Shown: in pieces, positions 12,788-32,242 of the stretch
Layout: each line of letters starts with the position of its first letter
Position numbering within the stretch: the stretch's first letter is position 1
DNA from: Streptomyces sp. B21-083
Lineage (GTDB): Bacteria > Actinomycetota > Actinomycetes > Streptomycetales > Streptomycetaceae
DNA length: 64,000 nucleotides
Reading direction: 5' to 3'
Assembly: GCF_036898825.1 (NCBI RefSeq)
Contig: NZ_JARUND010000001.1
Span: forward strand, 5,022,001-5,086,000
Translations under genes and position numbers: made by a program
Notes under the pieces: model-generated
The model's database searches: none
Seen by the model: the letters and a program-made list of their open reading frames with translations, nothing else
What the model was told of the DNA's origin: nothing

Positions 12788-12836
12788 ACCGTGCGCCAGA
12801 ACACCTCGGCCCCGCTCGCACCGGCCAAGGTTTGCC

Positions 12837-12896: not shown

Positions 12897-12981
12897 GCGA
12901 CAACGCTCCCATCCTGCCCCGTACCACCCGGATGGAACACCCCGATTGCTATTCCAATAACAGGCCGGGAAGGTGATCCAC

Positions 12982-13431: not shown

Positions 13432-13468
13432 GTTCCACTGTGCCTATCGCGATGAGGGAGAGCGGAAA

Positions 13469-13972: not shown

Positions 13973-14468
13973 CGGTCACGTGGCCCCTCCAGCGGGACGC
14001 ATCGGCTGCCGAACTGGATGAGGCGTGTACAAATCGGTGCACCTCGCGCGGGCTCGGACGTCCACGTCGCCCGCACCCGGGGGGCATTCCCAGCGCTGGG
14101 CCAACCCGACCAGGAGGGCAGAGCGTTATGTAGCGGCGGCTGCAGGCGTCGCCGAGATCTCTCCCTGGTCAGGTTGTCGGCGCTGGCTGAACACAGCCGT
14201 CGTCGTGAGAGGTTCCCCCGTTGCACAGTAGTTGCTGATCAACTGTTCAGATGGGTGGAGGGGTTTTCAGCCCACCACTCGGCGGGGACGACGTCGCGGA
14301 TCGTGGACGGCCAGATCGGGCCCTCGCCGGCGCGCCCGCGAGCGGCCAGACGATCTGCCTGGTGGCCGCGGCAGAGCGGCTCACTTTCGCCTCTCGATAC
14401 CTTCAGCCTGCCTAGACTTGGAGGAAGGCGACAAGACGCCGAATTCCACGAACACGAGGGTGGCGGAA
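13973..14468. promoter_or_regulatory. Non-coding stretch upstream of DISARM
   Basis: About 500 bases between the hypothetical gene and drmD. Open frames crossing it lack a ribosome site and plausible protein sequence, although the drmD frame is open back to 14232. It probably holds the drmD promoter. No repeat or palindrome stands out. Confidence 0.4.
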
Positions 14469-17400
14469 GTGACCGAAGCAGTGGCTGAGTCCGGGCTGCG
14501 CGAGGCCGGTCCAACCCGGGGCCGCAAGCGCCGTCCGACCGGAACTTCCGGGGAGGCCCCGGCGCCAGGTCAGTCCGTGACTGTTCGCAACCGTCAGTGG
14601 GTCGCCACCGAGGTGTCTCGTTCCAGCGTTGTCGCGGACGACCCCACCCGGGGCTTCGATGCGACGCCTCAGCATCTGGTCACGTTGGTCTCGATTGAGG
14701 ATGACGCCGGCGACGAGGAGCTCCGAGTGGTATGGGAGCTCGAACAGCAGGCCGTCACTCACGATCGGCACGCTCTCCCGAGTCCGCAGCCGGTCGGAGA
14801 TGACAGCGTTCCTCGCTTCGACGATCCGGACCGCTTGGACGCCTTCCTTGACGCGGTCCGCTGGGGCGCCATCGCCTCGGCCGACAAGACCGCGCTCCAA
14901 GCGCCCTTCCGCTCCGGAATCAAGGTCGAGGATTACCAACTCGACCCCGTGGTCCGGGCCTTGTCGATGCCCCGTACCAACCTGCTCATCGCCGACGATG
15001 TCGGCCTCGGCAAGACCATCGAAGCCGGTCTGGTCATGCAGGAACTGATGCTGCGCCACCGTGCCCGCACGATGCTCATCGTCTGCCCTGCCAACCTCAC
15101 GGTGCAGTGGCGGGACGAGATGCGAGACAAGTTCGGCCTCGACTTCAAGATTGTTAACAGTGAGCTGCTCCGTGAGCTCCGCCGGTCCCGGGGCCTCTAC
15201 ACCAACCCCTGGACGCACTACCCCCGCTTGATCGTCAGCGTGGACTGGCTCAAGCGGGAACGCCCTATGCGCCTGCTGCGTGACGTACTGCCTGCCGTAC
15301 CTGAATACCCCCGCGCTTTCGACCTCCTTGTCGTCGATGAGATCCACACGTGTGCTCCGTCGGGCAACGGCAAGTACGCCGTTGACTCGCAGCGCACCAC
15401 GGCGATCCGCACGCTGGCTCCGCACTGCGAGCACCGCCTCTTCCTGTCCGCGACCCCGCACAACGGCTATCTGGAGTCCTTCACCGCGCTGCTTGAACTC
15501 CTCGACGATCAGCGCTTCGCCCGTGGCGTTCCGCCTTCTCAGGAACAGCTTGCCCGCATCATGGTTCGGCGCCTCAAGCGGGAGCTCCCACCCAACTGGG
15601 ACGGCAGTGCGCGGTTCCCGAAGCGGCAACTGCGTGCCCTGGAGGTGGAGTACAACGCTCAGACGCGCGATGCCTACGCCGACCTCACCGCCTATGCCGC
15701 GAGTCGGCGCGGACAAGGAGGCGCGGGCAACCAGCCTGGCGCCGTTGCCCAGCGCACCGCTGCTGATTTCGTCACCTCGCTGCTCAAGAAGCGTTTCCTC
15801 TCATCGCCCAAGGCGTTTACAGAGACCATCGACACTCACCTGGCGACCATGACGGCCAGATCCGAAGGCAATTCCTCGGGACAGGCCGGCCGTCAGCTCG
15901 ACGCTTCCGCGCGGGATTCACGGGTCAAGATCCTCAAGCCGCTCGTTGACCGACTCGACGAAACAGCCGAGGACGACGAGTCGTACGGCGAAGCCGCGAC
16001 CGAGGCGCTCACCGCAGCGCGCAGCCTCTCCGCTCCACTCACCAGCGAGGAACACGGCCTGCTCACTCGGCTCCGGGACTGGGCACGCATCGCGCAGGAC
16101 CGTCCCGACGCCAAGTTCGATGCCCTCCGCCTGTGGCTCGACCCGGTCGTCTGCCCGCAAGGTCCGCGCGAGGAGTGGACCGACGAGCGCGTCATCATCT
16201 TCACGGAATACCGGGACACCCAGCGCTGGCTGCACGAGCGACTCCTTGCGGCAGGAGTGCCTGCGGAGCGAATCGCCATGCTGTTCGGCGGCCAGGATGA
16301 GGAGCAACGGGAGCACATCAAGTCCGTGTTTCGTGAATCTCCTGAACTCTCGCCGATCCGCATCCTGCTGGCCACCGACGCTGCCAGCGAGGGCATCAAC
16401 CTCCAGTCGTACTGCCATCGGCTCCTGCACTGGGAGATCCCCTGGAACCCCAATCGTCTGGAGCAGCGCAACGGCCGCATCGACCGCCACGGCCAGAACG
16501 CCCCGGCCGTGGAGATCTTCCATTTCGTCCCCACCGGATGGCAGGGCAGCAAGATCCGGCCGGAGAAGGAACCGACGTCGCAACGCATTAGCGGTGGCCT
16601 GTTCGACGAGACCAGCACGGACGTCGTCGAGGAGGGCGCGTTCACGACAGGAACGCTGGAGGATGAACTCCACTTCCTGGCCGTCGCCGCTCGCAAGGTC
16701 GACCAGATCCGAGAGGACCTCGGCAGCGCAGGAGAGGTGATCGCCGCACAGGTTGAGCAGAAAATGCTCGGCCGACGGGCTGACTGGCAAACCGCGGACG
16801 CCGAGATCAGCAAGCGTTCAGGGCGTGCGACCCTCAAGATCGAACGTGATCTCGCTCGTGACCTCGAGCGCCTCGTCAGTGAGCTCTCCGGCAGCCGTGC
16901 CGAACTGAATCTGACCCCCGGTACGGTCGAGAGGGTGGTACGTACGGCTCTTCGCCTCGCTCACCGGAAGGACCTGAACGAGGTGCCGGCACCGCAAGGT
17001 GTCACCGCTCGCTGCTTCCGCCTGCCCGACCTGCCAGGTGTCTGGGGGCAGGCCCGCAATGACGGGCTGCGGCACCCGATGACCAAGCAGGAACGACCGG
17101 TGACATTCGACCAGGAGGCCGTCTCCGCTGGGCGGACAGACGTCGTATTGATGCATCTCGGGCACCGGCTCGTGCAGATGTGCCTGCGCCTGTTGCGTGC
17201 CGAACTCTGGGCCGGCGGAGCCGCCGCCAAACTTAGCCGGGTCACCGCGAAAGTGGTCCCTGGTGATCTTCTGCGAGCGCCGGCGATTGTCGCGCACGGT
17301 CGTGTCGTCATTTCGGGAGACGGCGGCATGCGACTCCACGAGGAGATCGTCGCCGCAGGCGGCAGCATCGTCGAGGGAAGGCTGGAAGCCGCCAAGCAGG

Positions 17401-17861
17401 ACGACGTGGACGCATGGCTCCACGCAGCAGTCGACGAATTGCCGGCCGAGACCGTCCTCCAACGCCTCACCGAGCTGTGGCCGAACCTTGAGGACCGGCT
17501 CTCCCGCGCTCTGGAGACCCGGTCCAACCAGCGGGCCCGATCCCTGCAGGCGGTGCTCAAGAAGCGCTGCGACGAAGAGGTAAAGGGCGTAGAGCAGGTC
17601 CTTCGAGAGCTTGAGAAGTCCATCGGACAAGCTCTGGAGGACCACACTCACTGGGAACAGGCATCACTCTTCGAAGTAGAACAGCGCAACCAACTCCGCA
17701 AGGACCACGACGCCCTCCGGGCGCGCTTGAAGGCTATTCCTGACCTCGTCGAGCAGGAGACCAGCGCCCTTCGCCGTCGATATGCCGACCCGACCCCGCG
17801 CTGGTTCCCTGTCGCTGTGACCTTCCTCGTCCCGTCCGTACTCGCCCGAGGTGACCGCTGA
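14469..17861 (+). CDS. drmD: DISARM SNF2-like helicase DrmD
   Basis: 1130-residue SF2/SNF2-type ATPase of class 1 DISARM. The N-terminal RecA lobe has Walker A DVGLGKT (GKT at residues 181-183), DEIH at 290-293 and SATP at 327-330. The C-terminal lobe has TDAASEGINLQ and the motif VI region RNGRIDRHGQ (667-676). The C-terminal 350 residues are helical and charged. The start GTG 14469 follows a GAGGG site at 8 bases; the upstream extension of the frame is Arg-rich and not protein-like. The stop overlaps the drmMI start (TGATG), indicating translational coupling. In the class 1 order it is the first gene. It is thought to act on incoming phage DNA with the other Drm proteins; its mechanistic role is inferred from the family. 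Confidence 0.9.
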   Translation: MTEAVAESGLREAGPTRGRKRRPTGTSGEAPAPGQSVTVRNRQWVATEVSRSSVVADDPTRGFDATPQHLVTLVSIEDDAGDEELRVVWELEQQAVTHDRHALPSPQPVGDDSVPRFDDPDRLDAFLDAVRWGAIASADKTALQAPFRSGIKVEDYQLDPVVRALSMPRTNLLIADDVGLGKTIEAGLVMQELMLRHRARTMLIVCPANLTVQWRDEMRDKFGLDFKIVNSELLRELRRSRGLYTNPWTHYPRLIVSVDWLKRERPMRLLRDVLPAVPEYPRAFDLLVVDEIHTCAPSGNGKYAVDSQRTTAIRTLAPHCEHRLFLSATPHNGYLESFTALLELLDDQRFARGVPPSQEQLARIMVRRLKRELPPNWDGSARFPKRQLRALEVEYNAQTRDAYADLTAYAASRRGQGGAGNQPGAVAQRTAADFVTSLLKKRFLSSPKAFTETIDTHLATMTARSEGNSSGQAGRQLDASARDSRVKILKPLVDRLDETAEDDESYGEAATEALTAARSLSAPLTSEEHGLLTRLRDWARIAQDRPDAKFDALRLWLDPVVCPQGPREEWTDERVIIFTEYRDTQRWLHERLLAAGVPAERIAMLFGGQDEEQREHIKSVFRESPELSPIRILLATDAASEGINLQSYCHRLLHWEIPWNPNRLEQRNGRIDRHGQNAPAVEIFHFVPTGWQGSKIRPEKEPTSQRISGGLFDETSTDVVEEGAFTTGTLEDELHFLAVAARKVDQIREDLGSAGEVIAAQVEQKMLGRRADWQTADAEISKRSGRATLKIERDLARDLERLVSELSGSRAELNLTPGTVERVVRTALRLAHRKDLNEVPAPQGVTARCFRLPDLPGVWGQARNDGLRHPMTKQERPVTFDQEAVSAGRTDVVLMHLGHRLVQMCLRLLRAELWAGGAAAKLSRVTAKVVPGDLLRAPAIVAHGRVVISGDGGMRLHEEIVAAGGSIVEGRLEAAKQDDVDAWLHAAVDELPAETVLQRLTELWPNLEDRLSRALETRSNQRARSLQAVLKKRCDEEVKGVEQVLRELEKSIGQALEDHTHWEQASLFEVEQRNQLRKDHDALRARLKAIPDLVEQETSALRRRYADPTPRWFPVAVTFLVPSVLARGDR

Positions 17862-20800
17862 TGCCGCCGACCGCCAAGAAGGCCCCTGTGCGCGTACTCA
17901 AGCAGATCGCGCAAAAGCCGGTCGAGCAGCACGAGGAATGGCTGAAGCTCCTCCGGCCCGACGGCCCCTTCATTGCTCTACCGGTCCTGGTCGAGGCGCT
18001 TCCGCAGGGTCTCGACACGGTGCCGGCCGAGACTGTCCAGCGGATCCGCCAGGCGTGGGCCGAGGTCCAGGGGGACACAGACCTGCTCGGCCCCGCATGG
18101 CAGCAGTTGATCCTGGAAGAGCTCCTCGGTTACCGCGGGCAAGTCCTTCGCCATGGTGCTGCGCTGCCCGGCGATCTCGGAACCAGCACTGTCGGCGATG
18201 TCTCAGGACGCATCTTGCCGGATGCCGTACTGATGGGCCCCGGCTCCGGTGGTCTCGCTGAGCGTGTACTCGTCTACCGGCGTCCTTGGGCCGAGCGCCT
18301 GGACAAGACGGAGAGCAAGGACCGACAGGCGCTCACCGAGCAGGCCGCTGAGCTCTGCCGACGCCGCGATGTTCCGGTGGCGCTTCTGACGAATGGTCGC
18401 CAGTGGGCACTGCTGCATGCACGGCCTCAGGAGCCGACAACGATCGCGGTGTTCGATGCAGACCTGTGGTTGGAGGAGCCACTTCTACTGCGCAGTTTCA
18501 CCACTTTGCTGAAGGCTAGGCGGGCGTACCAGGCGCCGAAGACCAACGAAGGCAAGTACACGGACAGCCTGGCCGCACTCTTCGCCCGCAGCGCCGAGGC
18601 GCAGGCGGAAGTCACCGACACGCTGGGCAAACAGGTTCGCGCGGCGGTGGAGCTGCTTGTCGGTGAACTGTCCCGACTGGACCGGGAGAATCGGGGAGAG
18701 ATCCTCGATGCCATCGCGCCCCGGGACGTCTACCGAGCTGCGCTGACCGTAATGATGCGGCTCGTCTTTCTCCTCTATGCGGAGGAGCAGCGGCTCCTGC
18801 CGATCGACGACGAGCTTTACCATGACTCCTACGCGGTCTCGGCGCTGTACGACCTACTGGAGATCGAGCGCACCAAGCACGGCGACGAGGTCGGCGACCG
18901 CCGCGAAGCGGCTTGGCCCCGGCTACTGTCGATCTTCGCTGCACTGCACGGCGGCTCCCGCCACCCCGATCTGCGAATCCCCGCCTACGGCGGCTCCTTG
19001 TTCGACCCGGACCGGTTCTCGTGGCTGACCCGGGCCAAGGTCACGGACCGCGTCGTCTATCAGATCCTCGACTCGTTGCTGACCCTTCGCCGGAAGGGGA
19101 AGGGGGCCGAGAGGCTCTCCTACAAGGGACTCGATGTCGAGCAGATCGGCCACGTCTACGAAGGTCTGCTGGAGTACTCCTGCCTCAAGGTCACGGAGCC
19201 CTACCTGGGGCTCTTCGGCAAGTTCGAGCCCGAGATCAAGCTCGTCGAGCTAGAGACCTGGCAGGAGGCGGGGACTCTGGAGGACGAGCTCAAAGAACGG
19301 ACCGGAGCGACGCTCAAGCAGATCGCCAAGGCCCTCACGACGCAGCCGAACCTCGATCAGCACGCAGCACTGCACGCGGCCTGTGACAACGACGAAGCGC
19401 TGGCGACGCGGGTGGCCGGCTTCTACGGACTGCTACGGATGGACCTCCGTGACCAGCCGACGGTATTTCCCACCGATGCGGTGATAGTTACCCAGGTTGG
19501 CGACCGTCGAGCCACCGGCACCCACTACACACCACGCCGTCTCGCTGAAGAGATCGTCGAACACACGCTGGCCCCGCTGTGCTACGCCCCAGGGCCCGCG
19601 GAAGGTGTCGCCCATGACGGCGTGTGGCACGCGAAGTCTGCGAGAGAACTGCTGGAGCTGAAGATCCTCGACCCGGCCATGGGCTCAGGCGCTTTCCTGG
19701 TCTCCGCCTGCCGGTATGTCGCCGAGCGGGTCGTGGAGGCGTGGGAACGCGATGGGCTGCCGGATGATGTTGCCGAGTACGCGGGTGACGCTGACCGTGA
19801 CGAACTGCTCCTTGATGCCCGAAGGTTGGTCGCGGATCGTTGCCTTCACGGAGTCGATCGGGACGAGATGGCAGTGGAGCTCGCCAAGCTGTCTCTGTGG
19901 TTGGTGACTCTGGCGAAGGGGCGCCCCTTCTCGTTCCTCGATCATGCGTTGCGCTGCGGCGACTCGCTGGTGGGCACGCTGTCTGCGGACCAGATCAGCT
20001 CGTTCCACCTTGACCCCGAGCGGGGTCACCTGATCAACGCGCGCATCACCGGCGCCATCGATGAGCTGACCGGCCCTCTCCTGTCTCGTGCTGCCGAGCT
20101 GCGTCGGGAGATCGAGGCGATGCCGGTGCTCGATATCCGCGATGCCAACACAAAGGCCGACAAGCTGCACGAGGCCGAGAAGCTGACCGGCCGGCTTCGA
20201 CTTGCGGCGGACGCGGTTGTGGGCGCGGCGCTCTCGGCGCAGGTGCTGGAGGAGTCTGAGGTCGAAGACGTCACGGGGGAACGGAACGTGGGCGGCAACC
20301 GCGCCGTGTTCCGCTCCGCGACAGCTGCGGCGAAGGAAGAGGTCTACGACGACCGGTTGACCGCCGTCTCGGAGATGGTCCAGAAGGCGATACTTGGAGA
20401 TGAGGAGGCGTACGCCGAGGCCCGCGCGCTCGTCGACGGGTGGCTGAAGGGCCCCCGTGAGGCACCGATTCGGCCACTGCACTGGCCTTTGGACTTCCCG
20501 GAGCTGCTGGGCGTCGAAGGAGGCCGAAGCTTCGACGCCGTGATCGGCAACCCGCCGTTCATCGGTGGCCAGAAGCTCACAGGCAACCTCGGTACCGACT
20601 ATCGCGAATACCTCGTAGACAAGATCGGCAAGGGCGTTCGCGGAAGCGCCGACCTGTGCGCTTACTTCCTGCTGCGCAATCTGAGCCTGGCTCCGAACCG
20701 GCGCACCGGCATCATCGCCACGAACACCATCGCCCAGGGTGACACCCGCGAGGTCGGCCTCGACCAGGCGGTGGCGCAGGGATGGAAGGTGTACCGGGCA

Positions 20801-21061
20801 GTCAAGTCACAGCCGTGGCCGGGGGCAGCAGCGCTTGAAGTGTCGCTGCTCTGGATCGGGCGGGCCACGGAGCGAGAACAGTACGTGTTGGACGACCTTG
20901 CCGTCCGGGGGATCACTCCGTCGCTGGACGCGCAGTCGCGTGTGTCGGGGAATCCGTATCGGTTGGTAGCCAACCGAGGACAGGCTCGCACATCGGTCGA
21001 ACGTGCTCGGCAGGGGTTTCGTGCTTCAGCCCGAGCAAGCACAGGCTCTGATCGAGCGTGA
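17861..21061 (+). CDS. drmMI: DISARM N6-adenine methyltransferase DrmMI, truncated by a frameshift in its specificity domain
   Basis: Class 1 DISARM methylase, which marks host DNA so the system spares it. The constant part is intact: an N-terminal region with LLTNGRQWALLHARP, SAM-binding motif I DPAMGSGAF (604-612) and catalytic NPPF (897-900). At 20959-20977 the reading frame crosses a palindrome (around RLVANR). Just after it a net +1 indel near 20980 shifts the frame, giving an abnormal tail (QARTSVERARQGF...) and a stop at 21061 (1066 residues). The expected product would continue through 21003-21946 to about 1361 residues. Reading from the same palindrome into the inverted copy keeps the frame correct, so the shift belongs to the cassette present here. 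Confidence 0.88.
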   Translation: MPPTAKKAPVRVLKQIAQKPVEQHEEWLKLLRPDGPFIALPVLVEALPQGLDTVPAETVQRIRQAWAEVQGDTDLLGPAWQQLILEELLGYRGQVLRHGAALPGDLGTSTVGDVSGRILPDAVLMGPGSGGLAERVLVYRRPWAERLDKTESKDRQALTEQAAELCRRRDVPVALLTNGRQWALLHARPQEPTTIAVFDADLWLEEPLLLRSFTTLLKARRAYQAPKTNEGKYTDSLAALFARSAEAQAEVTDTLGKQVRAAVELLVGELSRLDRENRGEILDAIAPRDVYRAALTVMMRLVFLLYAEEQRLLPIDDELYHDSYAVSALYDLLEIERTKHGDEVGDRREAAWPRLLSIFAALHGGSRHPDLRIPAYGGSLFDPDRFSWLTRAKVTDRVVYQILDSLLTLRRKGKGAERLSYKGLDVEQIGHVYEGLLEYSCLKVTEPYLGLFGKFEPEIKLVELETWQEAGTLEDELKERTGATLKQIAKALTTQPNLDQHAALHAACDNDEALATRVAGFYGLLRMDLRDQPTVFPTDAVIVTQVGDRRATGTHYTPRRLAEEIVEHTLAPLCYAPGPAEGVAHDGVWHAKSARELLELKILDPAMGSGAFLVSACRYVAERVVEAWERDGLPDDVAEYAGDADRDELLLDARRLVADRCLHGVDRDEMAVELAKLSLWLVTLAKGRPFSFLDHALRCGDSLVGTLSADQISSFHLDPERGHLINARITGAIDELTGPLLSRAAELRREIEAMPVLDIRDANTKADKLHEAEKLTGRLRLAADAVVGAALSAQVLEESEVEDVTGERNVGGNRAVFRSATAAAKEEVYDDRLTAVSEMVQKAILGDEEAYAEARALVDGWLKGPREAPIRPLHWPLDFPELLGVEGGRSFDAVIGNPPFIGGQKLTGNLGTDYREYLVDKIGKGVRGSADLCAYFLLRNLSLAPNRRTGIIATNTIAQGDTREVGLDQAVAQGWKVYRAVKSQPWPGAAALEVSLLWIGRATEREQYVLDDLAVRGITPSLDAQSRVSGNPYRLVANRGQARTSVERARQGFRASARASTGSDRA
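20959..20977. repeat. Palindromic junction site, left (proposed inversion site)
   Basis: TCGGTTGGTAGCCAACCGA: 8-base arms around a 3-base spacer, inside drmMI. Identity with the inverted copy begins here (from 20960) and not before. This is where a tyrosine recombinase would exchange strands to flip the segment. Confidence 0.75.
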
Positions 21062-21946
21062 CGTCCGCAACAAGGACGTGCTGTTTCCGTATCTCAACGG
21101 TGAGGACCTCAACTCCAGGCCAGACTGCTCGGCAAGCCGCTGGGTGATCAACTTCCACGACTGGACCGAGGAGCGCGCTCGCAGCTACCCCGAAGTGTTC
21201 GAGATCGTCGAACGCGACGTGAAACCGGAGCGAGCAAAGAACAGCGATCGCCGCCGTCGAGAGATTTGGTGGCGATTCACAAGGCCAACGCTTGACATGT
21301 ATGAAGCGATCTCTGGGCTGGACCGAGTCCTGGTGGTAGCTCGCGTGAGTAAGACGGGCTTGCCGGTCTTCACAGTACTGCTGGCCAAGTGATGAGTGAG
21401 CAGACGGTGTCTTTCAAGAAATGAAACTTCCGCTTCTTTCCATGCTCAGTAGCGCTACTCACAGCTGGGCCATCGCGCGCGCATCCAGCTTGAAGGCGGA
21501 CCTTCGCTATACGCCGTCCGACGTCTATGAGACATTGCCGCTACCCAGAGAGAAATCCGACATGGAAGCGACCGGGCGAATCCTCGATTCGGCACGCAGG
21601 CGAATCATGAGATGACCGGGAAATCGGCTTGACGAAGCTCTACAATCTGGTCCACGATGCGACCGTTGTGGATAGTGACATCTTGAGGCTGAGAGACTTT
21701 CACGTAGAGATCGATCAGGCGGTTGTAATTGCCTACGGCTGGCAGGACCTCAACATTGATCACGGATTTCATCAGACTCGCCAAGGAGTTCGCTGCACAA
21801 TCAGCCCCATGGCCAGGATTGAGATTCTTGACCGTCTACTAGAGCTTAACCATGAGCGACACACTTCCGAAAGCGGTACCCAGCAAGCCGGAATGAGCCT
21901 GAGAAATCGCCAGAGCGCTGCCCATGTGGGCGAGGTACTGTTCTGA
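21003..21946 (+). pseudogene. DrmMI C-terminal specificity cassette A (currently joined, frameshifted)
   Basis: C-terminal target-recognition part of the methylase in the orientation now fused to drmMI. Recognisable blocks lie in different frames: GFVLQPEQAQALIERDVRNK to VVARVSKTGLPVF (21003-21380), GQVMSEQTV (21383-21409), MKLPLLSMLSSATHSWAIAR to RRRIM (21421-21615), and GLTKLYNLVHDATVVDSDIL to EILDRLLELNHERH (21629-21946). At least four indels separate them, near 20980, 21378, 21410 and 21605. The blocks match the usual C-terminal order of DISARM/type IIG methylases. The cassette ends at the hairpin 21938-21963. It is either decayed or affected by consensus error in a mixed population. Confidence 0.8.
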
Positions 21947-21963
21947 TGGAAGGATCAGAACAG
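21938..21963. terminator. Hairpin at the meeting point of the two specificity cassettes
   Basis: Perfect 10-base arms CTGTTCTGAT / ATCAGAACAG around a GGAAGG loop. Both convergent cassettes end inside it (stop codons at 21944-21946 and 21955-21957), so it would terminate transcription of whichever cassette is joined to drmMI. Because it is symmetric it works in either orientation. Confidence 0.8.
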
Positions 21964-22996
21964 AAATCCATCTGTTGAAATTTGCTCACCCGGCTGCGGA
22001 TCCTTCCCGTTTCCTCCGGGTGACCGAAGAGATGATCTTTTCCTCGCAGATGGCTGTACGGCGGCTACCAGGCCTCCACCGCAGGTCCCCTCTAGAGCAT
22101 GTCGTTGATGATTGAGCTCGAGGAGGCGGTCCAGAATGTCAACCTGTGTAGCTGGGTCGATGGTATATCGCTTACCCTGTCGCGTTTGATGGAATCCGTA
22201 GGAAGAATCGATATCCACCCATCCGTAAGCGCTCGCCACCGCTCGATCGATCTCTTCGTGGAGAGATCGCAGACTCTGAACGTCGGCATCCACGACGGTC
22301 GCGTCGTGGACCAGATTGTAGAGCTTCGTCAATCCGATTTCCCGGTCTCGCATGATTCGCGCTGCGTGCCGAATCGAGGGTTCGCCCGGTCGCTTCCATG
22401 TCGGCATTCTCTCTGGGTGAGGCAATGTTTCATAAACGTCGGACGGCGTATAGCTGAGGTCCGCCTTCAAGTCGGATGCGCGCGCGATGGCCCAGCTGTG
22501 AGTAGCGCTACTGAGCATGGAGAAAAGCGCGAGATGCATTTCTTGAAAAGACCACCGTCTGCTCACTCATCACTTGGCCAGCAGATGTGAACGACCGGCA
22601 AGCCCGTCTTACTCACGCGAGCTACCACCAGGACTCGGTCAAGATGACGAGTCGCCTCGTAGAGCCTCGGCGCGCGTTCAGCAAATTGCCACCACCGCTC
22701 GCGGCGAGCAGCCCGTTGTTTTTTGCTCGCTCCGGTTTCACGTCGCGTTCGACGATCTCGAACACTTCGGGGTAGCTGCGAGCGCGCTCCTCGGTCCAGT
22801 CGTGGAAGTTGATCACCCAGCGGCTTGCCGAGCAGTCTGGCCTGGAGTTGAGGTCCTCACCGTTGAGATACGGAAACAGCACGTCCTTGTTGCGGACGTC
22901 ACGCTCGATCAGAGCCTGTGCTTGCTCGGGTGCAAGAATGAACCCCTTGCCTAGCACGTACGAACCGATGTGCGAGCCACCTCGGTTGGCTACCAA
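21955..22996 (-). pseudogene. DrmMI C-terminal specificity cassette B (silent, inverted, frameshifted)
   Basis: Second copy of the methylase C-terminal part on the opposite strand, with no promoter or methylase core of its own. Its first block (residues from LVANRGGSHIGSYVLGKGF to about VKPERAK) is open and would be in frame with drmMI after inversion. Further in, single-base indels occur near 22705, 22582, 22556 and a pair near 22410-22360. The first 80 residues are nearly identical to cassette A, then the two diverge (RRREIWWRFTR versus RRERWWQFAER; IDHGFHQ versus DSSYGFHQ). Divergence in the recognition region is what alternative specificities would look like. Confidence 0.8.
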
Positions 22997-23000
22997 CCGG
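22982..23000. repeat. Palindromic junction site, right (proposed inversion site)
   Basis: TCGGTTGGCTACCAACCGG, the reverse complement of the left site apart from its last base: 7-base arms around a 3-base spacer. It bounds cassette B on the recombinase side, 80 bases before the recombinase start. Confidence 0.75.
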
Positions 23001-23081
23001 CACGGGGCATACGGTCAAAGTTAGCCGAATTTAGATGAGTTATGGACATTATCGCGGAGATTCGCTTGCGTCATCGGGCGA

Positions 23082-23939
23082 ATGGCGACGTACCCGATCA
23101 TGTCCGTCGACAGGTTCATAGAGGCGCAGCGCGCCGATGGGTACTCGCCGAACACGATCAGGGCGCGGGCCGTGTGCGTCAGGTCCGTCGCGCGGCAGGC
23201 CGGGGTAGAGCCGGAGGACCTGCGAAACGTCCATGTGGTGGCGTACTTTGCGTCGCGCCCGCTGAAGCCGTGGTCGCGGCGGACGTACCTCAACCACCTT
23301 GGGGCCTTCGGCAAGTGGTTGGGTGTCAGCCTGATCGAGGGCATTCGGAAGCCGCCGGCACCCCGGTCCATCCCGAATCCCTTGCCTGATACGGAGCTGA
23401 ACAAGCTCGTCAAGGTGACAACCGGGCGCCACCGGGCCTGGGTTCTCCTCGGTGCGTTCTGCGGGTTGCGTGCGCATGAGACGGCCAAGTTGGAAGCCGG
23501 GGATCTGGTTGATGGAGAGGACGGCGAGGTAGTCATACGAGTGACAGGCAAGGGAGGCCGCACGGACATTGTCCCGGTTCCACCAGTGGTGCTCAAAGCG
23601 CTGGACAGATCCGTGGAAGGACGTTTTTGGCCGGGTGCCCGTCCGGAACGTGTCTCCCGCTCCGTTGCGACGACGGCAGCCAGGATCGGTATCAAGATGC
23701 GATATCACCAACTGCGCCATCGCTTCGGGACAGCTGTCTACCGAGCCTCCGGCAGAGATCTTCTGCTCACTCAAAGATTGATGCGCCACGCCTCACCTGC
23801 GACGACGGCGGGGTACGCCGCCGTGGCCGATGAGCGGATCCACGAAGTCATCCGGGCTTTGCCAGGGTCTGGATCTCCCGCGAGACGTGCTGCCCCTGCC
23901 TCAGCACCTTGCGGCCACTGCCATAAGTCTGCGGCGTAG
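23082..23939 (+). CDS. Tyrosine site-specific recombinase, proposed DISARM specificity invertase
   Basis: 285-residue XerC/D-like recombinase. The N-terminal SAM-like DNA-binding domain spans about residues 5-88 (SVDRFIEAQRADGYSPNTIR). The catalytic domain has a full set: R130 (FCGLRAHE), K157 (TGKGGR), H209 and R212 (YHQLRHRFGT), H236 (LMRHASP) and nucleophile Y245 (TTAGYAAV). Start ATG 23082, with ATG 23100 as an alternative; no strong ribosome site. It lies just outside the inverted drmMI cassettes and inside the DISARM locus, where normal class 1 loci have no recombinase. The inferred job is flipping 20960-22999 at the two palindromes. A role in island integration is possible but less likely given its position. 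Confidence 0.85.
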   Translation: MATYPIMSVDRFIEAQRADGYSPNTIRARAVCVRSVARQAGVEPEDLRNVHVVAYFASRPLKPWSRRTYLNHLGAFGKWLGVSLIEGIRKPPAPRSIPNPLPDTELNKLVKVTTGRHRAWVLLGAFCGLRAHETAKLEAGDLVDGEDGEVVIRVTGKGGRTDIVPVPPVVLKALDRSVEGRFWPGARPERVSRSVATTAARIGIKMRYHQLRHRFGTAVYRASGRDLLLTQRLMRHASPATTAGYAAVADERIHEVIRALPGSGSPARRAAPASAPCGHCHKSAA

Positions 23940-25124: not shown

Positions 25125-25639
25125 TTCGCCACCAGCATGTTCCTGAACGAGGGCGCGAAGAGCCCGTGTAGTGATTCGACGCTCAGAAGATTGGCGCGTG
25201 GAACCGGCACCGTGTGCGTGCTGCCCTGCCGGTCCTCGTCCAGAATCGGTTCATCGCCGTGGAAACAGGCCCAGTAGGCAGCGTGCCGGAGGAGGAGCCT
25301 GGTCTTGTCGACATCGATCCAGTCGGACGGATCGGTCGGCACCACTACTAAGAAGAGGAACCGGGGGATCTGATACGCCGGGCCGGCGAGCATATTGAAG
25401 TTCTTGATTTCGAGTGGGTACCTGAACTCGGCGTCGTTGCCTTTGGGCTTGGACCAGCTCTTCACCTGGGCGTTGATGGCCGGAAAGCCGATGGTTCCCC
25501 CGCGGCCCGGGTAGTTGATCGTCCAGTCCAGGCCGATGCGGTCGCGTCGGCCCGGCTTCTGGATGTCAAGGTTGGCGGCCACGGCAAGCGCTTCGACGAA
25601 CATCTCACCGAAGTCTCCTTGGTGCCCTTGATCGCCCAT
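25121..25639 (-). CDS. DUF4365-like protein (predicted nuclease-like fold)
   Basis: 172 residues from ATG 25639. GDFGEMFVEALAVAANLDIQ followed by RIGLDWTINYPG and FPAINAQVKSWSK gives the E...D...QVK pattern of DUF4365, a family with a restriction-endonuclease-like (PD-(D/E)XK) arrangement that recurs in defence islands. Whether it cleaves nucleic acid is unknown. It is divergent from drmA across 292 bases and coupled to the 389-residue gene. It could be a DISARM accessory or an independent two-gene system inserted here. Confidence 0.6.
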   Translation of the reverse strand: MGDQGHQGDFGEMFVEALAVAANLDIQKPGRRDRIGLDWTINYPGRGGTIGFPAINAQVKSWSKPKGNDAEFRYPLEIKNFNMLAGPAYQIPRFLFLVVVPTDPSDWIDVDKTRLLLRHAAYWACFHGDEPILDEDRQGSTHTVPVPRANLLSVESLHGLFAPSFRNMLVAK

Positions 25640-25931
25640 GGGCAGGCCCGAAAGGAACTGCTCGGCGCCGCTGTGCCCGGTTATGGCTGGTGATGGCTGG
25701 TGCGGGAGTCCGTGGAACGTCCCGCTGTTCGTTGCCTCGCCAGCCCCACCGTGCACTCGTGCTACTCCCCATCTCCGGTGGTGTCATGTCCCACGCTACC
25801 CATCCAGCGTGAGAGGAGTCCGGGGGACGGCGGGTTTCAGCCGGAGGCGAAGGCTTCTCTGCCCGCTGTCCGCGACTGTACGTTCGGCAATCGGCAGCGT
25901 GTTGTCTGCGCTGGTAGTTAGGGTTGTGTGC

Positions 25932-28900
25932 GTGGCCCAGGAGAGCTTTGAGACGCAGTCCCCCAGCAGCTCGGCAGCGGCGGCGGGGACCTCGGACGTG
26001 TCTGTGCTGACGCTGCCCCGCCCGCAGGAGATCCGCAGCGAGCTGGAGCAGCTTGTCGTGCGGGATCTGCTCGGGCCGATCGGGGATCAGAATGAGGAGC
26101 TGAGCGACAGCCCAGTCGATCAGTATGTGATCGGCCGGCTCGCGCCCAACGGTTCGACCGTGGAACCCGACCAGCTCGATGCGTTGGCTGATGCCGAGCC
26201 TCAAGCACTCGAAGAGGGAGATCGGGAGCCGGACGCCCCAAATGTCCCCAGTCTTCAGCCCTCGGCCATCGGCTTCACGATCTGCCTGGACGGAGACGCC
26301 ACCGAACTGACCGTCGCGGCCTCCTGGGCCCGCTATGAGCGCGTGCCTGCGCCCGAGCACGAGCGGGCCGCCTCGGTGTGGCGCCGGACTCCGGTACTTG
26401 GCACTGCCGCGATCAAGATCAGTGAAGGTGAGATTCTGCCGCAGTCGCTCAACTCGGAGCAGCCGCAGATCATGGTTCGCGGCCGGACTCGGCGTTTCCA
26501 GGGCGACTGGCTGATCTCGCTTTTCCTGGTGAACGCACAGTTGGATATGCCGGGGCCGAAGAACTGGATCTTCCAGGCTGAACTGGAGGTCCATGGGACT
26601 GAGGGTGAGGCACCCTTCAAGCCGCGACAGTCACAGGTCTCGGGAGGTGGTGATCCCTCCGATCAAGGAGAGCAGCGGGCGCTGGCCATGGCCTACCGAT
26701 TCCATCCCGAGTTCGCGGTCGGGCACGGCACCGGCGTACATGCTGTGCGTGCCCGGCATGATCGCCTCCGCGCCTCCGCGATCCGGACTGTCGCGGCACC
26801 CGCGTACGAGGTCCCCTTCACGGACGTCCCGAGTTACACCCACCCCGCGGACTCCGATCTGCCGGAACTCGCTGGTCTTGTACTCGACATGAAGGAGTTG
26901 GCGGAGCTCACGCCGGATCAGCTCCGCAGCGCTCTGATGCCCTTGGTCGACGGGTACCGAGCCTGGATCGGTCGGTGCGAAGCCCGGATCGATGATCCGG
27001 AGCAGCGTCTCGAAGGATTCGCAGCAGACGCTCGGGACAATCTTCGACGGGCCACACGGGCTGCGAGCCGGATCGAAGATGGCATCAACCTTCTGACGAC
27101 AGGGCCAGCACTGGAGGCGTTTCGCTTCGCTAACAGGGCGATGCGCGATCAGCGTGTCCACAGCATGGCTGCTGCGATCCGTCGGCGGAACGACAATATT
27201 GATCTGGAATCCGCTGTCTCCGCCGTGGACCTCCCCAAGAACCGCAGCTGGCGTCCCTTCCAGTTGGCGTTCGTGCTTCTTAACCTCCCCGCCCTGGCGG
27301 ACCCGGGGCACCCCGAACGCGCGGAGGAAGCAACCAGTGCGATCGCCGACCTCCTGTGGTTCCCGACCGGTGGTGGAAAGACCGAGGCGTATCTGGGCCT
27401 GACCGCCTTCACCTTGGCAATCCGTCGTCTGCGGCCGGACCTTGGCGGGATCGATGCCCGCAACGGGGTCGCAGTGCTCATGCGCTACACCCTCCGTCTA
27501 CTGACGATCCAACAGTTCCAGCGTGCAGCCGCACTCATCTGCGCCTGCGAGGTCCTGCGTCGTCAGGACACCGGTGTCTGGGGGGAGCAGCCCTTCCGGC
27601 TCGGCCTGTGGGTCGGTAGCGGCGTGACGCCGAACCGGACGGATCAGGCCGACGACTGGCTGACCAGTCTCCGTCGTTCCCAGGGGCGTCCGGCGCGGGC
27701 GCAGGGATCTCCGCATCAGCTCACCAGTTGTCCCTGGTGCGGCAGTCAGATTGTGCCCGGCCGCGACGTCAGCGTGGATCTGACCACCCGTCGAACCGTT
27801 ATCACCTGCCCGGAACTGTTCAACTGCCCATTCGGGGCGATGTCCGACAGCAGTTCGGGGGGCCAAGGACTCCCCGTCCTCGTCGTGGACGAGGAGATCT
27901 ACCGACTTCTGCCGAGCGTCATCATCGCCACGGTCGACAAGTTCGCACAGCTCCCCTGGAAGGGGGAGACACAGGCCCTCTTCGGCCAGGTGACACAGCG
28001 TTGCAGTCGGCATGGGTACGTCACCAAGGACCTTGCCTCCGCAGAGTGGGAGAAGCCCAGCCACGATGCGAAGGGTGTGCACCCTTCTGCTTCGACCACC
28101 CCGGCCTTGCGCGTGCGGCCACCTGACCTGATCATCCAGGATGAGCTGCACCTGATCTCCGGGCCACTGGGATCCCTGGTAGGCCTCTACGAGTCGGCTG
28201 TCGACAAACTCTCTACGTGGGAGATCGTGCCAGGCAAGTCAGTGCGCCCCAAGGTGATTGCTTCAACGGCAACGGTCCGCCGAGCGGATCGCCAGATCCA
28301 TTCGCTGTTCAACCGTAGGACCGAGGTCTTCCCGCCACCCGGGCTAGAGGCGAGTGACAACTTCTTCGCTCGCCAGCGTGACACCCAGGATCAGGAAGCC
28401 ACGGAGACCCGCCCTGCCATCACCGGCGTCCCCGGGCGCAGGTACGTGGGGATCTGCGCGCAGGGTGTGCGCACGAAATCGACACTGATCCGTATCTATG
28501 TCGCTGTACTGGGAGCCGCCCAGCTCATTCACGAGAAGTACGGCCAGAACGAGATCACCGACCCCTACATGACGCTGGTGGGGTACTTCAACAGTCTGCG
28601 AGACCTCGGCGGCATGCGCCGGCTGGTCGAGGACGATGTCACCACCCGACTCGGCCGTGCAGATCAGCGCGGGCTGGCCAAGCGCTACGACCCTCTACTG
28701 CGCGAGCTCACCTCGCGCATGTCATCGGACGACATCCCCGAGGTCCTGGAACAGTTGGACCTCACGTTCCGGCCGCGAAGCCCGAAGAAGAGCGGCGGAA
28801 CCACCTCGCGCCGGCCAATCGATGTGCTCCTTGCCACCAACATGATCGCCGTGGGCGTGGACGTGTCCCGTCTCGGTGTCATGGTTGTCACCAACCAGCC

Positions 28901-29582
28901 CAAGTCAACGGCCGAGTACATCCAGGCGACAAGCCGAGTAGGCCGTGCCTCTCCGGGCCTGGTCTTCACCGTGCTCAACTGGGTTCGCCCCCGAGATCTC
29001 TCCCACTACGAGACATTCGAGTCGTTCCACGCCACGATCTACCGTCACGTTGAGGCCCTGTCTGTCACTCCCTTCGCTGACCGCGCGGTGGACCGTGGGC
29101 TTTCAGGTGTCCTCGTCGCACTGGTCCGCAACCTGGAGCAGCAGTACAACGGCAACACGGGCGCACAGCAGTTCGACACTCGCGGCAAGCTGTCCGACCA
29201 CGTATCGGGCTACCTCAGCCGACGAGCGCGTGATGTCGCTGCCGCCCGGCCTGTCGGTGACGAGGTTCGACGCCAGCTCGACAGCCGCCTCGACCACTGG
29301 GACCGTATGCGCAAACAGCCCGCGACCGTCCTGGGCTACCGCAAGCCGTACCGGATCCAAGACGACATGATCGGCTTGCTTCATGAACCGGACGGTGGCC
29401 CCTGGCGTGCGATGAGCTGTCCGACTTCGCTGCGCGAGGTGGAACCGGGAATCCGGCTCATCCTCCATACCGGTCCGAGTGGTGAAGAGGCAGATGAACC
29501 TGCCTTCCAGCCTCGAGTGGACGACCCGGAGACCTCACATCCGCAACAGCTCGGCGGAGCCATTGCCGACGAGGAGAACTGA
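25932..29582 (+). CDS. drmA: DISARM helicase DrmA
   Basis: 1216-residue DISARM core helicase. Start GTG 25932 follows AGGG about 10 bases upstream; the frame runs back to 25638, but that part overlaps the opposite-strand gene and is not protein-like. Helicase motifs: Walker A FPTGGGKTEAYLG (K483), DELH at 737-740, ASTATVRRA, and the C-terminal lobe LLATNMIAVGVDVSRLG ... ATSRVGRA. A Cys pair, CPWCG with a later CPELFNC, suggests a zinc site between the lobes. With DrmB it forms the DISARM core complex, known to bind DNA with a 5' overhang in an auto-inhibited state. It is 3 bases from drmB. Confidence 0.92.
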   Translation: MAQESFETQSPSSSAAAAGTSDVSVLTLPRPQEIRSELEQLVVRDLLGPIGDQNEELSDSPVDQYVIGRLAPNGSTVEPDQLDALADAEPQALEEGDREPDAPNVPSLQPSAIGFTICLDGDATELTVAASWARYERVPAPEHERAASVWRRTPVLGTAAIKISEGEILPQSLNSEQPQIMVRGRTRRFQGDWLISLFLVNAQLDMPGPKNWIFQAELEVHGTEGEAPFKPRQSQVSGGGDPSDQGEQRALAMAYRFHPEFAVGHGTGVHAVRARHDRLRASAIRTVAAPAYEVPFTDVPSYTHPADSDLPELAGLVLDMKELAELTPDQLRSALMPLVDGYRAWIGRCEARIDDPEQRLEGFAADARDNLRRATRAASRIEDGINLLTTGPALEAFRFANRAMRDQRVHSMAAAIRRRNDNIDLESAVSAVDLPKNRSWRPFQLAFVLLNLPALADPGHPERAEEATSAIADLLWFPTGGGKTEAYLGLTAFTLAIRRLRPDLGGIDARNGVAVLMRYTLRLLTIQQFQRAAALICACEVLRRQDTGVWGEQPFRLGLWVGSGVTPNRTDQADDWLTSLRRSQGRPARAQGSPHQLTSCPWCGSQIVPGRDVSVDLTTRRTVITCPELFNCPFGAMSDSSSGGQGLPVLVVDEEIYRLLPSVIIATVDKFAQLPWKGETQALFGQVTQRCSRHGYVTKDLASAEWEKPSHDAKGVHPSASTTPALRVRPPDLIIQDELHLISGPLGSLVGLYESAVDKLSTWEIVPGKSVRPKVIASTATVRRADRQIHSLFNRRTEVFPPPGLEASDNFFARQRDTQDQEATETRPAITGVPGRRYVGICAQGVRTKSTLIRIYVAVLGAAQLIHEKYGQNEITDPYMTLVGYFNSLRDLGGMRRLVEDDVTTRLGRADQRGLAKRYDPLLRELTSRMSSDDIPEVLEQLDLTFRPRSPKKSGGTTSRRPIDVLLATNMIAVGVDVSRLGVMVVTNQPKSTAEYIQATSRVGRASPGLVFTVLNWVRPRDLSHYETFESFHATIYRHVEALSVTPFADRAVDRGLSGVLVALVRNLEQQYNGNTGAQQFDTRGKLSDHVSGYLSRRARDVAAARPVGDEVRRQLDSRLDHWDRMRKQPATVLGYRKPYRIQDDMIGLLHEPDGGPWRAMSCPTSLREVEPGIRLILHTGPSGEEADEPAFQPRVDDPETSHPQQLGGAIADEEN

Positions 29583-29585: not shown

Positions 29586-31439
29586 GTGACCACCGCCTCT
29601 GCCCAGCCGCTGCGTGTCGGCGAACTCCGCCCGAGCCAACTTCTGCACACCTACGGGATCGGATCAGTCGCCGATCTGCCCAACCTGTCCGTCATGGTGA
29701 TGGGCCTCGACCACTGGAATCTGGAGAACACCAAGATCCTTACGGAGGATCGCCTGCTTGCAGCTACTAAGCGTCGGCTCGGACAGCAGGTTCAGACCCT
29801 ACGGACTCCGCCTTACGCACCGGAAACCACGGACGTCTACGGTGCATGGGCTCGGGTGGGCGTACCTGTCACGCTCTTCCCACGGTGGCTCCGCTGTTCC
29901 GACGGACGGTGCAACCGTCTCGCCCCAGCGAACTCCGGACTCTTCGAACTGCTCCCGCACACGTACTCGCCCGAGAAGATCCGCTACGTGCACTCGTGTC
30001 GAGGAAGCGGGGGGAATCGTCCGTCCGCAGTCCCCGCTCGCTTCCTCATCGCCTGTGCCGAGGGCCACCTTGACGACTTCCCATGGTCTTACTTCGTCCA
30101 CCGAGGCGTAGAGCCGATCGGTGAGCACACACTCAAGCTCCAGGAGCGGGGTACCACCGGCGAAGCTGCGAACATCTTCGTCACGTGCTCATGCGACAGC
30201 AGCCGCACCATGGCTGAGGCGATCGGAATGCGCGGCGAATCCGAACTCCCCGGATGTCGCGGGCGCCATCCCCACCTGGGCACGTTCCAGGGCTGTGGGC
30301 AGACCGTGCGCACTCTGGCCCTAGGCGCTACGAATAGTTGGTTCGCGGCACAGCTCAGCGTCTTCAGCCTGCCCAAGGCGGAGGAGCCGCTTGAACAGGC
30401 CATCCGGGATAACTGGAAGATGCTCAGCCTCCTCGCCCATGTTCCTGCGGAAGCTGCACTCATGCTGCTTCCCACTCAGGTGTGCTGGCCGCAACTCGAG
30501 CCCTTTGGCGTCGGTGAGGTCTGGAAAGCCATTCGCAGCGAGGCCGACCGGCAGGCGTCGCATCAGCACGGTGACGCCGAGGATGTCGACGAGCTGGATC
30601 TCGCGACACCGGAGTGGGAAGCGTTCACACAGCGAACCCGCAGTCAACTGCCCGATTTCACAACGAAACCGGAGCCCGTCCCTCTCGCCGCGAGCGGCTG
30701 GTTGAAACAGGTGGTTCTCGTCCAGCGGCTTCGGGAAGTCGCAGCGCTCACCGGGTTCACGCGCATCGACGCGCCGGAGTGGCGTCCCCAGGACGACGAT
30801 GATGCCGACCGGCTGGCTCCTCTCTCTGTTGAACCGCCGACCTGGGTGCCATGCGCCGAACTAAGGGGAGAGGGAGTGTTCTTGCGCTTCGATGAGAAGC
30901 GCATCGCAGTCTGGGAGCAACTGCCCGAAGTAAGGAGGCGAGAGAGCGAACTGCGCGGCGCCTATGCGCAATGGTGCGCCAACCGTTCTGTCGACCCGCA
31001 ATGGCCGGGCGCCCGTTACGTGCTGCTGCACTCCTTCTCGCACATGCTTATCCGAGAATTCGCCCTGGAGTGTGGCTACGGGGCCTCCGGGATAGGGGAG
31101 CGGATCTACGCACGGTCCGGGGACAAACCCATGGCAGGCGTGCTGCTGTACACCGCCGCCCCCGACAGTGAAGGAACGCTCGGTGGATTGGTGACGCTCG
31201 GGCAACAGGGGAGGCTTGGCCCGCTTCTCTCGCAAGCACTGGATGCAGCCCGGTTGTGCAGTTCAGACCCGTTGTGCGCGGAACACGACCCCACAGTGCA
31301 CAGTCGACTCCACGGAGCGGCCTGCCACGCTTGCCTCTTCGCAGCCGAGACTTCGTGTGAAAAGGGCAACCACTTCCTGGACCGGGCCATGCTCGTGGAG
31401 ACCTTGGCGGGTGGCACGTTCGGATTCTTCGCTTCGTGA
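29586..31439 (+). CDS. drmB: DISARM DUF1998 protein DrmB
   Basis: 617-residue partner of DrmA. GTG start at 29586, 3 bases after the drmA stop. It has the DrmB N-terminal signature GELRPSQLLHTYGIGSVADL and probable zinc ligands at C104 and C109, with further Cys in HSCRGSGG and IACAEGH. The C-terminal DUF1998 domain contains YVLLHSFSHMLIREFALECG, YGASGIGERIY and the Cys cluster C580, C583 and C591. It overlaps drmC by GTGA. Complete, with normal domain order. Confidence 0.92.
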   Translation: MTTASAQPLRVGELRPSQLLHTYGIGSVADLPNLSVMVMGLDHWNLENTKILTEDRLLAATKRRLGQQVQTLRTPPYAPETTDVYGAWARVGVPVTLFPRWLRCSDGRCNRLAPANSGLFELLPHTYSPEKIRYVHSCRGSGGNRPSAVPARFLIACAEGHLDDFPWSYFVHRGVEPIGEHTLKLQERGTTGEAANIFVTCSCDSSRTMAEAIGMRGESELPGCRGRHPHLGTFQGCGQTVRTLALGATNSWFAAQLSVFSLPKAEEPLEQAIRDNWKMLSLLAHVPAEAALMLLPTQVCWPQLEPFGVGEVWKAIRSEADRQASHQHGDAEDVDELDLATPEWEAFTQRTRSQLPDFTTKPEPVPLAASGWLKQVVLVQRLREVAALTGFTRIDAPEWRPQDDDDADRLAPLSVEPPTWVPCAELRGEGVFLRFDEKRIAVWEQLPEVRRRESELRGAYAQWCANRSVDPQWPGARYVLLHSFSHMLIREFALECGYGASGIGERIYARSGDKPMAGVLLYTAAPDSEGTLGGLVTLGQQGRLGPLLSQALDAARLCSSDPLCAEHDPTVHSRLHGAACHACLFAAETSCEKGNHFLDRAMLVETLAGGTFGFFAS

Positions 31440-32242
31440 GTTCCGATCACGTCGTCGCTGACGCTGACGCGGATCCTCTGGCGGCTCAGCTCGCCGAGCT
31501 GGGCCGCTTCCTCCCGCCCGTCCATCGAAGGGCGTGGGCACGTGTGCTGAAGTCGCTCGAAGGGCCGGGCCCGACGACGGTAGCCAGACTGCTCGCAGCG
31601 CACCCAGGTGTCGGCCTCGCCGCTCGGGCCGACGCACTTGTCAGCCTGTGGAGGCAGAACGCCCCAGAGCTGTCCGGGTCCGCGCTGGCGTTTGCACTCG
31701 AGACTGCGGCAAGTCAGTTCGATTACCTGCGTGCGGAGCAACACCTGGACCTCGTGGTGAGTGGCCCCACCTCCCGGGCCGTACCAGTACGGTCGACGAG
31801 CAGTGTGGCTGTCGAAGTCATCCGCCATGCTCGGGCCAATCTCCTTGTGGTGAGCTTTGCCGCGTACGGTGTGAAGGAGATCGTCCAGGAGCTCAAGCTG
31901 GCGGCTGGGCGCGGCGTTCGTCTCGATCTCGTGCTGGAGACATCGACTTCTGCTGTGAATGCCTTCGAGGGCCTTGGCCCTTCGGCACGCCTTTGGCACT
32001 GGCCAGATGAAGGTCGTAGCCGTACCGGAGGTGGCAGGGCAGCACTGCACGCAAAAATCATCGCCGCTGACCGCGAGGTCATACTGCTGGGTAGCGCCAA
32101 TCTCACCGACCGTGCGTTCGCCGACAACCTGGAGATCGGGTTAGTCCTTCACAACCGGGCGCTTGTTGGCCGGGTCGTTGATCATTTCACCGCGCTGATG
32201 GACCCCGCTCGCGGCCCGCTGAAGCCGCTCGGATGTGAGTGA
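31436..32242 (+). CDS. drmC: DISARM phospholipase D-like protein DrmC
   Basis: 268 residues, starting at GTG 31436 inside the drmB stop. It has one HKD motif, H205-A-K207 with D212, followed by LLGSANLTDRAF, typical of PLD-family nucleases and phosphodiesterases. The N-terminal half is helical (LPPVHRRAWARVLKSLEGPG). DrmC is the last gene of DISARM and in the Bacillus system was dispensable for protection. A 259-base gap then separates the next operon. Confidence 0.9.
   Translation: MSSDHVVADADADPLAAQLAELGRFLPPVHRRAWARVLKSLEGPGPTTVARLLAAHPGVGLAARADALVSLWRQNAPELSGSALAFALETAASQFDYLRAEQHLDLVVSGPTSRAVPVRSTSSVAVEVIRHARANLLVVSFAAYGVKEIVQELKLAAGRGVRLDLVLETSTSAVNAFEGLGPSARLWHWPDEGRSRTGGGRAALHAKIIAADREVILLGSANLTDRAFADNLEIGLVLHNRALVGRVVDHFTALMDPARGPLKPLGCE

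Follow-up and report, generated by a model that had tools for sequence, protein, structure and literature searches.

Can a DISARM (defence island system associated with restriction-modification) operon exchange the part of its methylase that reads DNA by turning over a short piece of its own chromosome? The question is raised by a locus of Streptomyces sp. B21-083, studied here in a stretch of 64,000 nucleotides (nt) that we call the window (G000:C1:5022001-5086000, from a genome of 10.5 Mb in five contigs, 99.96% complete). The window carries drmMI, the methylase gene of a DISARM operon, a second and inverted copy of its 3′ part, and a tyrosine recombinase gene beside the pair. We put at roughly 0.8 the probability that loci of this kind combine a drmMI core and two inverted tails with a recombinase that flips a ~2-kb segment, swapping the predicted recognition domain; the locus very likely operates in the manner of a cod/PsrA-type invertible specificity switch. 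The evidence consists of the anatomy of the locus, the ten further loci in which it recurs, the alternatives that relatives hold in frame, the homogenised repeats, and the modules swapped between near-identical tails of different strains.

In the proposed mechanism, the recombinase would flip the segment lying between two copies of an 11-nt motif, CGNYTGGTAKC, so that the drmMI core would be joined to one predicted recognition domain or the other; the swap would likely change the sequence methylated by DrmMI. Exchange in an identical repeat (~210–330 nt) and in an inner block coding LDRVLVVA would likely add further combinations, through the same recombinase or through homologous recombination. 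The parts are placed in the window as follows.

17861..21061, + strand: drmMI open reading frame (ORF) as assembled, 1066 amino acids (aa); PADLOC DrmMI, 1167 bits; Eco57I and MmeI_Mtase domains
20959-20977: 19-nt palindrome at the left end
20960..20970, + strand: left end motif CGNYTGGTAKC, the proposed recombination site; sole + strand match in 64 kb
20960..21943, + strand: copy A, the tail presently joined to the core, frameshifted; from the self-match, with matches to relatives' tails stopping at 21874-21943
21030..21238, + strand: main repeat, a 209-nt block identical to copy B
21318..21368, + strand: inner block coding LDRVLVVA, an arm of a 51-nt inverted repeat (I5, 98%) with 22593-22643
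22018..22999, - strand: copy B, the silent tail facing A; it keeps the frame of the core across the junction and is frameshifted further in
22983-22999: 17-nt palindrome at the right end
22989..22999, - strand: right end motif CGNYTGGTAKC; sole - strand match in 64 kb
23082..23939, + strand: tyrosine recombinase, predicted invertase of the segment; PF00589 (Phage_integrase), E 1.2e-12

An earlier, sequence-only reading of this DNA had claimed that the C-terminal part of drmMI exists twice as facing inverted copies, with a recombinase bearing a complete R-K-H-R-H-Y set 80 bases outside. Both statements stand: copy A runs from 20960 on the + strand and copy B from 22999 on the - strand, and the recombinase, which starts at 23082, ~80 nt outside, has all six residues (R130, K157, H209, R212, H236, Y245). 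The self-match pairs 20960-21723 with 22999-22238 at 88% over 777 columns; inverted arms of 250, 128, 57, 51 and 194 nt are complementary at 96, 91, 95, 98 and 72%, and identical blocks of 20, 209, 48, 31, 48, 24 and 29 nt are shared by A and B. The first 80 residues of the copies had been described as almost identical, which is not how they are built: counting from the site there are 20 identical nt, a differing patch, the 209-nt identical block and then the shorter ones. That both copies begin at the same palindrome is half right, in that the ends in the window are palindromic; the long palindrome, considered as a conserved site, was not found in a scan of the segment ends of eight other loci, where only its 11-nt core is common. 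A search of the whole 10.5-Mb genome with a 4-kb query matched only the query itself and its own inverted copy. The cassette at 20999-22960 has 57% G+C, against 66% in the drmMI core.

Where would the segment be cut? CGNYTGGTAKC is common to the segment ends in 15 of 15 sites, and in all eight complete loci of 15–64 kb it occurs once per strand, at those ends. It occurs once in locus L076, which is cut by a contig end; L077 was left out of the scan, and L101 was retrieved only after the motif had been defined. A shorter form, CGNYTGGTA, stands at the matching codon in one (L065) of 32 control DrmMI loci. In the genes counted, 5–9% of valines are encoded by GTA, the codon inside the motif; this suggests that the motif is held by a constraint on the DNA itself. 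We take it as the putative site at which the recombinase cuts.

Does the plan recur in other genomes? A draw of 392 genomes from the genus had DrmMI-like matches (E<=1e-100) in 35 genomes at 38 places, and recombinase matches (E<=1e-20) in five genomes. Three of these recombinases, at 65–100% identity, all lie at DrmMI (own genome, G110 and G225); the other two are distant, at 31–37% (G002 and G284). Of the other 37 DrmMI-like places 34 were retrieved with flanks, and three of the 34 have strong inverted repeats: L053 and L063, both with the recombinase, and L059. The latter (G122, 9691-19901) holds two convergent DrmMI-like methylase genes that share, close to their ends, an inverted match of 286 bp (82%); the recombinase search of the genus draw reported no member of this subfamily in its genome. 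Scanning genome contigs with a single recombinase sequence gave 201 stretches, none confirmed; scanning with an alignment of three recombinases gave seven loci at 64–71% identity. Taxon-level searches for the recombinase returned 3 of 394 genomes for the family (own genome, G848 and, newly, G993 with L101), 2 of 255 for the order (own genome and G848, the genome of L074), only the own genome among 394 for the class, and only G110 itself among 150 relatives of G110.

Ten further loci of the same recombinase subfamily were obtained, all beside DISARM genes; the presence of a recombinase in all ten follows from how the search was built. The inverted second tail or its arm is found in nine of the ten, a pairing that the sequence-only reading had suggested seeking beside tyrosine recombinases at other DISARM loci. 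L073 has only the arms of the second tail, with a run of N between them; L076 begins inside the first tail and L077 begins 288 nt ahead of the recombinase match. The tails of six intact pairs, and those of L101, end back to back, 3–19 nt apart. Seven further loci extend far enough upstream to tell, and all seven, like L101, have DrmD directly upstream. All five DISARM genes lie within the retrieved stretch of L063 (where DrmA, DrmB and DrmC also have PADLOC matches), L075 and L101; L079 has DrmD, DrmMI, DrmA and DrmB, and L076 and L077 have the downstream genes only, because of contig ends. The drmA frame opens ~190 nt (L063) and ~150 nt (L075) past the recombinase. The genome of L079 (Nocardiopsis sp. 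FR4, G769) has a pair of long DrmMI-like genes, one on contig C3 and one on C5, and the facing tail is at the latter.

Inverted repeats are difficult to assemble, the contigs carrying the drmMI core of strains SID3212 and BV286 stop within the repeat, and a run of N interrupts L073; the inverted duplication could on these grounds be a fold-back artefact of assembly. We regard this as barely credible, since the two tails differ through their variable parts (the active and silent tail proteins of Streptomyces sp. P3, locus L063, are 62% identical) and the plan recurs in independent genomes, some of them on contigs of 8–10 Mb.

What would an inversion exchange? The ten active and silent tails of five relatives all match the Pfam domain MmeI_TRD, nine of them above the curated cut-off and the silent tail of L075 below it. 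The end motif sits close to the beginning of this domain, and an inversion would therefore exchange most of it together with the C-terminus, and the alternative tails probably read different DNA sequences. Flipping the segment at the motif in silico gives an open, in-frame and different DrmMI in 6 of 6 evaluable relatives, with these lengths.

L063: 1436 aa now, 1442 aa after inversion
L074: 1392 aa now, 1384 aa after inversion
L075: 1450 aa now, 1430 aa after inversion
L078: 1383 aa now, 1392 aa after inversion (counted from where the tblastn match begins, the start codon being unchecked)
L079: 1341 aa now, 1341 aa after inversion
L101: 1449 aa now, 1445 aa after inversion

Not evaluable were L073 (N-run), L053 (no site) and L076 and L077 (contig ends).

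The silent tails have open reading frames, and public records name the tails 'type IIL restriction-modification enzyme MmeI', as stand-alone proteins. A facing tail might on that account be expressed as a separate recognition-domain protein instead of being a store for inversion, and in Streptomyces sp. P3 the silent-tail frame begins outside the end motif with TTG (L063 8801-8819; MATGD...), so that such a polypeptide could be made there. We consider this very unlikely as an explanation of the second copies, which match the active tail in length and frame, end back to back with it at the spacing given above, and are accompanied by a recombinase and paired inverted motifs.

How far does the window itself conform to the proposed inversion? 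drmMI reaches the motif CGGTTGGTAGC at 20960, past codon 1033. The methylase core spans up to this site, beyond which the frame differs from that of copy A; because copy A is out of frame directly past the palindrome, the ORF comes to a stop at 21061. If the core is instead read through the site into copy B, the junction keeps the frame and translation goes on for 124 residues from the site, in an ORF of 1158 aa compared with 1066 aa now. The claim that drmMI stays in frame into the silent copy thus holds at the junction and fails further in, the frame of copy B being lost near 22713. With the joined tail out of frame and both copies frameshifted in the assembly, a working switch pair is not borne out for the window. 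The window methylase as assembled is without a recognition domain, so the claim made here for the family rests on the relatives. Frame changes apart, A and B are nearly full-length tails in a frame-tolerant comparison with relatives, which counts ~4 frame changes in A and up to 5 in B, the numbers depending on the template.

These frame changes may be real, in which case the switch of this strain, and of this strain only, would be a decayed relic whose drmMI has lost its recognition domain, while the family may function. Their number speaks for this, and so do the other DISARM genes, which are long open frames in an assembly that is 99.96% complete; the genome is thus not generally full of errors. 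Four observations pull the other way: the 209-nt repeat is still identical between the copies, the catalytic residues of the recombinase are intact, three of the frame changes in A have a counterpart at roughly the same place in B, and at 20984 copy A carries, inside the otherwise differing patch, a 13-nt string identical to copy B that looks like a mixed consensus. We lean towards consensus error, from mixed or mis-mapped copies, over decay, and regard a relic as the less probable outcome, one still to be taken seriously for this strain. Mixed copies alone would be no proof of inversion, because reads can mis-map between copies.

Do the tails exchange parts? In 9 of 9 loci, window included, a 135-bp block of the tail has the same sequence in both copies (100% identity); between loci it is 79.3–94.1% identical (mean 86.5; 128 comparisons, without L101). 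At or just past the LDRVLVVA block, six of eight loci have an identical stretch of >=20 nt, L063 and L076 being those without. Mosaic tails were counted among 52 of 134 tails (82 were not splittable by motifs, and a few of the 52 duplicate the same tail): in 90 of 1326 tail pairs, one half of the recognition domain matches at >=85% and the other at <=60%. P0242, from Streptomyces sp. MBT59, starts with the flank of the P3 silent ORF (MATGD) and matches the P3 silent tail in target recognition domain segment TRD1 (29/29) and the P3 active tail in the distal part (206/213). P0266 and P0271 are alike in their start (MFQHRLV), repeat (74/76) and distal part (186/190), and unlike in the first segment (10/23) and TRD1 (11/30). 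P0265 and P0282 agree in the repeat (73/74) but not in TRD1 (13/30) or at the C-terminus (distal part 180/206). Of the mosaics these are the clearest, and module-swapped tails of this kind are the products expected if inversion at the outer motif is combined with exchange at the inner blocks.

The same repeats, ~210–330 nt and identical or nearly so, and the same mosaics, which break at inner conserved blocks, would also fit tails that exchange only by homologous recombination or gene conversion between long inverted repeats, with the recombinase a mere bystander. This we hold to be improbable. Similarity at the ends begins at the 11-nt motif in 15 of 15 sites, a differing stretch separates motif and repeat in L074, L075, L078 and L101, and the recombinase subfamily adjoins DISARM genes in 10 of 10 further loci. 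If the recombinase does act, its part may be larger than a simple flip. We give somewhat better than even odds to a multi-site shuffle, run by a DISARM-dedicated recombinase subfamily on the 11-nt outer motif, the long inner repeat and the LDRVLVVA block; it would produce combinatorial recognition domains and several self-marks per culture, in a shufflon-like, phase-variable DISARM.

Among 58 aligned recombinase sequences, R-K-H-R-H-Y is kept in 57–58 (there is one F for Y and one gapped row), and the nearest solved chain is 5vfz, Gp33 (E 2.8e-31). A protein search returned 338 recombinase-like proteins at E<=1e-20; among the 120 best listed, 57 are >=62% identical and the next is at 54%. At least 14 of these 57 are matched by a stand-alone tail protein whose contig has exactly the same length, and which likely lies on the same contig; this is a lower bound because 45 of 120 tails entered the count. 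No recombinase relatives were confirmed among 22 stretches from viral contigs. Plasmids gave 179 recombinase records, all at <60% identity (15 among the matches listed are at 26–36%), and 40 DrmMI records, likewise all at <60%.

Several observations weigh against a recombinase-driven switch in DISARM, or narrow the ground on which it stands. CGNYTGGTAKC was not found in S. paludis L053, which keeps the recombinase; its silent tail is truncated. Within the retrieved stretch, L053 and L078 have DrmD and DrmMI and no DrmA match, and in L073 the DrmA match lies 6.7 kb beyond the recombinase; the DrmA match of L074 is weak. PADLOC was limited among the relatives to proteins of L053 and L063, the others being identified by tblastn with window proteins. 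Some relatives are fragmented assemblies, in which the identity of repeats may partly be an effect of assembly. In the window, the 1066 aa of today and the 1158 aa of the inverted form are both shortened by frame changes in the two tails as assembled, and a Pfam search found no MmeI_TRD match in the present drmMI ORF. Module swaps are seen between strains and not within one, and a pair of isolates from one strain gave no sign of inversion. The search turned up no near-identical DrmMI with the other tail, the window's closest DrmMI relative being at 69%; the best match of the silent recognition domains among 120 listed full-length DrmMI-like proteins is at 84%, which decides little. Homogenised repeats and inner mosaics can, moreover, also arise by homologous recombination.

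As for S. paludis, a locus with no end motif and a truncated silent tail looks like a locked switch. The active and silent tails of L053 (7421-9404) share a long identical C-terminal stretch, and its recombinase is still open. The phase-variable specificity-switch plan that the sequence-only reading saw in DISARM has strong support for the family, from the ten further loci, the 6/6 in-frame alternatives, the end motif and the homogenised repeats, and is given up as a working pair in the window. We infer that inversion probably occurs in living cells, and that self methylation and DISARM targeting would change with the tail.

The rest of the operon is placed in the window as follows.

14232..17861, + strand: DrmD, helicase of the DISARM operon; PADLOC DrmD, 1345.6 bits
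23955-25124, - strand: candidate defence gene between the recombinase and DrmA; PADLOC PDC-M02B
25638..29582, + strand: DrmA, helicase; PADLOC DrmA, 1013.4 bits
29586..31439, + strand: DrmB; PADLOC DrmB, 274.6 bits; MZB domain
31436..32242, + strand: DrmC, nuclease of the phospholipase D (PLD) type; PADLOC DrmC, 318.4 bits; PLDc_2 domain

DrmA, DrmB and DrmC are all present, with DrmD and DrmMI upstream, and these DISARM genes are open reading frames. The earlier assignment to class 1 DISARM is supported by PADLOC as far as DISARM goes; class 1 is presumably the label for the gene set with DrmD and DrmMI. The same genome has a second DrmMI-like gene (L064, G000:C1:1193263-1196343), 43% identical to the window core, with a frame of 1571 aa and without inverted repeats at the threshold used.

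Which known systems does the locus resemble? In the pneumococcal cod locus, inversion of type I hsdS genes with the tyrosine recombinase PsrA was shown by experiment (PMC7096588). Both there and in the window a tyrosine recombinase adjoins inverted specificity genes, or parts of them, of a methylating system, whose recognition part is altered by recombination in cod and would be so here; cod has repeats IR1 (15 bp), IR2 (298 bp) and IR3 (85 bp), to be set beside the 11-nt motif, the ~210–330-nt repeat and the inner block found here. The differences are that cod concerns a separate hsdS subunit of a Streptococcus type I system, whereas here it is the C-terminal domain of a fused DrmMI in DISARM, and inversion is predicted (PMC7096588). 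In BREX-1 (bacteriophage exclusion) of Lactobacillus rhamnosus, PglX heterogeneity has been linked to phase variation; the likeness is that a phage-defence system has one full-length and one partial gene for an adenine methylase, together with a site-specific integrase, which in BREX-1 lies between the two copies, whereas the DISARM recombinase lies outside the inverted pair (PMC7513527). Inverting type I hsdS loci in REBASE, with duplicated specificity genes and inverted repeats, make up ~6% of type I systems; that survey is by its title one of type I systems, and DISARM is not named in the part of it covered (PMC7394358). DISARM of Serratia likewise has a DrmMI adenine methylase with DrmA, DrmB and DrmC, and methylated DNA is described as reducing DrmAB activity; an inverted tail or a recombinase is not mentioned in the part covered (PMC9142583). 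The tails are like MmeI-type (type IIL) enzymes in carrying Pfam MmeI_TRD and that name in public records, and unlike them in lying within a DISARM operon, with DrmD upstream and DrmA, DrmB and DrmC downstream.

The sequence-only reading knew of no description of DISARM phase variation by inversion, and none appeared in the literature searched, which covers few subscription papers. None is given in the parts covered of PMC9142583, PMC12707154, PMC7513527, PMC7096588, PMC12458937, PMC12926258, PMC6329791, PMC7922946, PMC12939059, PMC7511551, PMC9427043 and PMC7394358; in those among them that name both DISARM and phase variation, PMC12926258 included, the two terms stand apart in the text covered. 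Type I restriction systems are known to have invertible specificity, and a link to it has been drawn for BREX pglX; for DISARM the literature searched gave no report of it.

If the proposed switch is real, the self-mark of a DISARM system would be swapped in one step, with the attacking proteins unchanged. The loci would then offer a natural system for the question of how DISARM tells self from non-self and how cells survive when their mark changes, as well as a recombinase with a defined, short candidate site. Mixed methylomes would be predicted in Streptomyces cultures, which would matter for transformation and for phage work.

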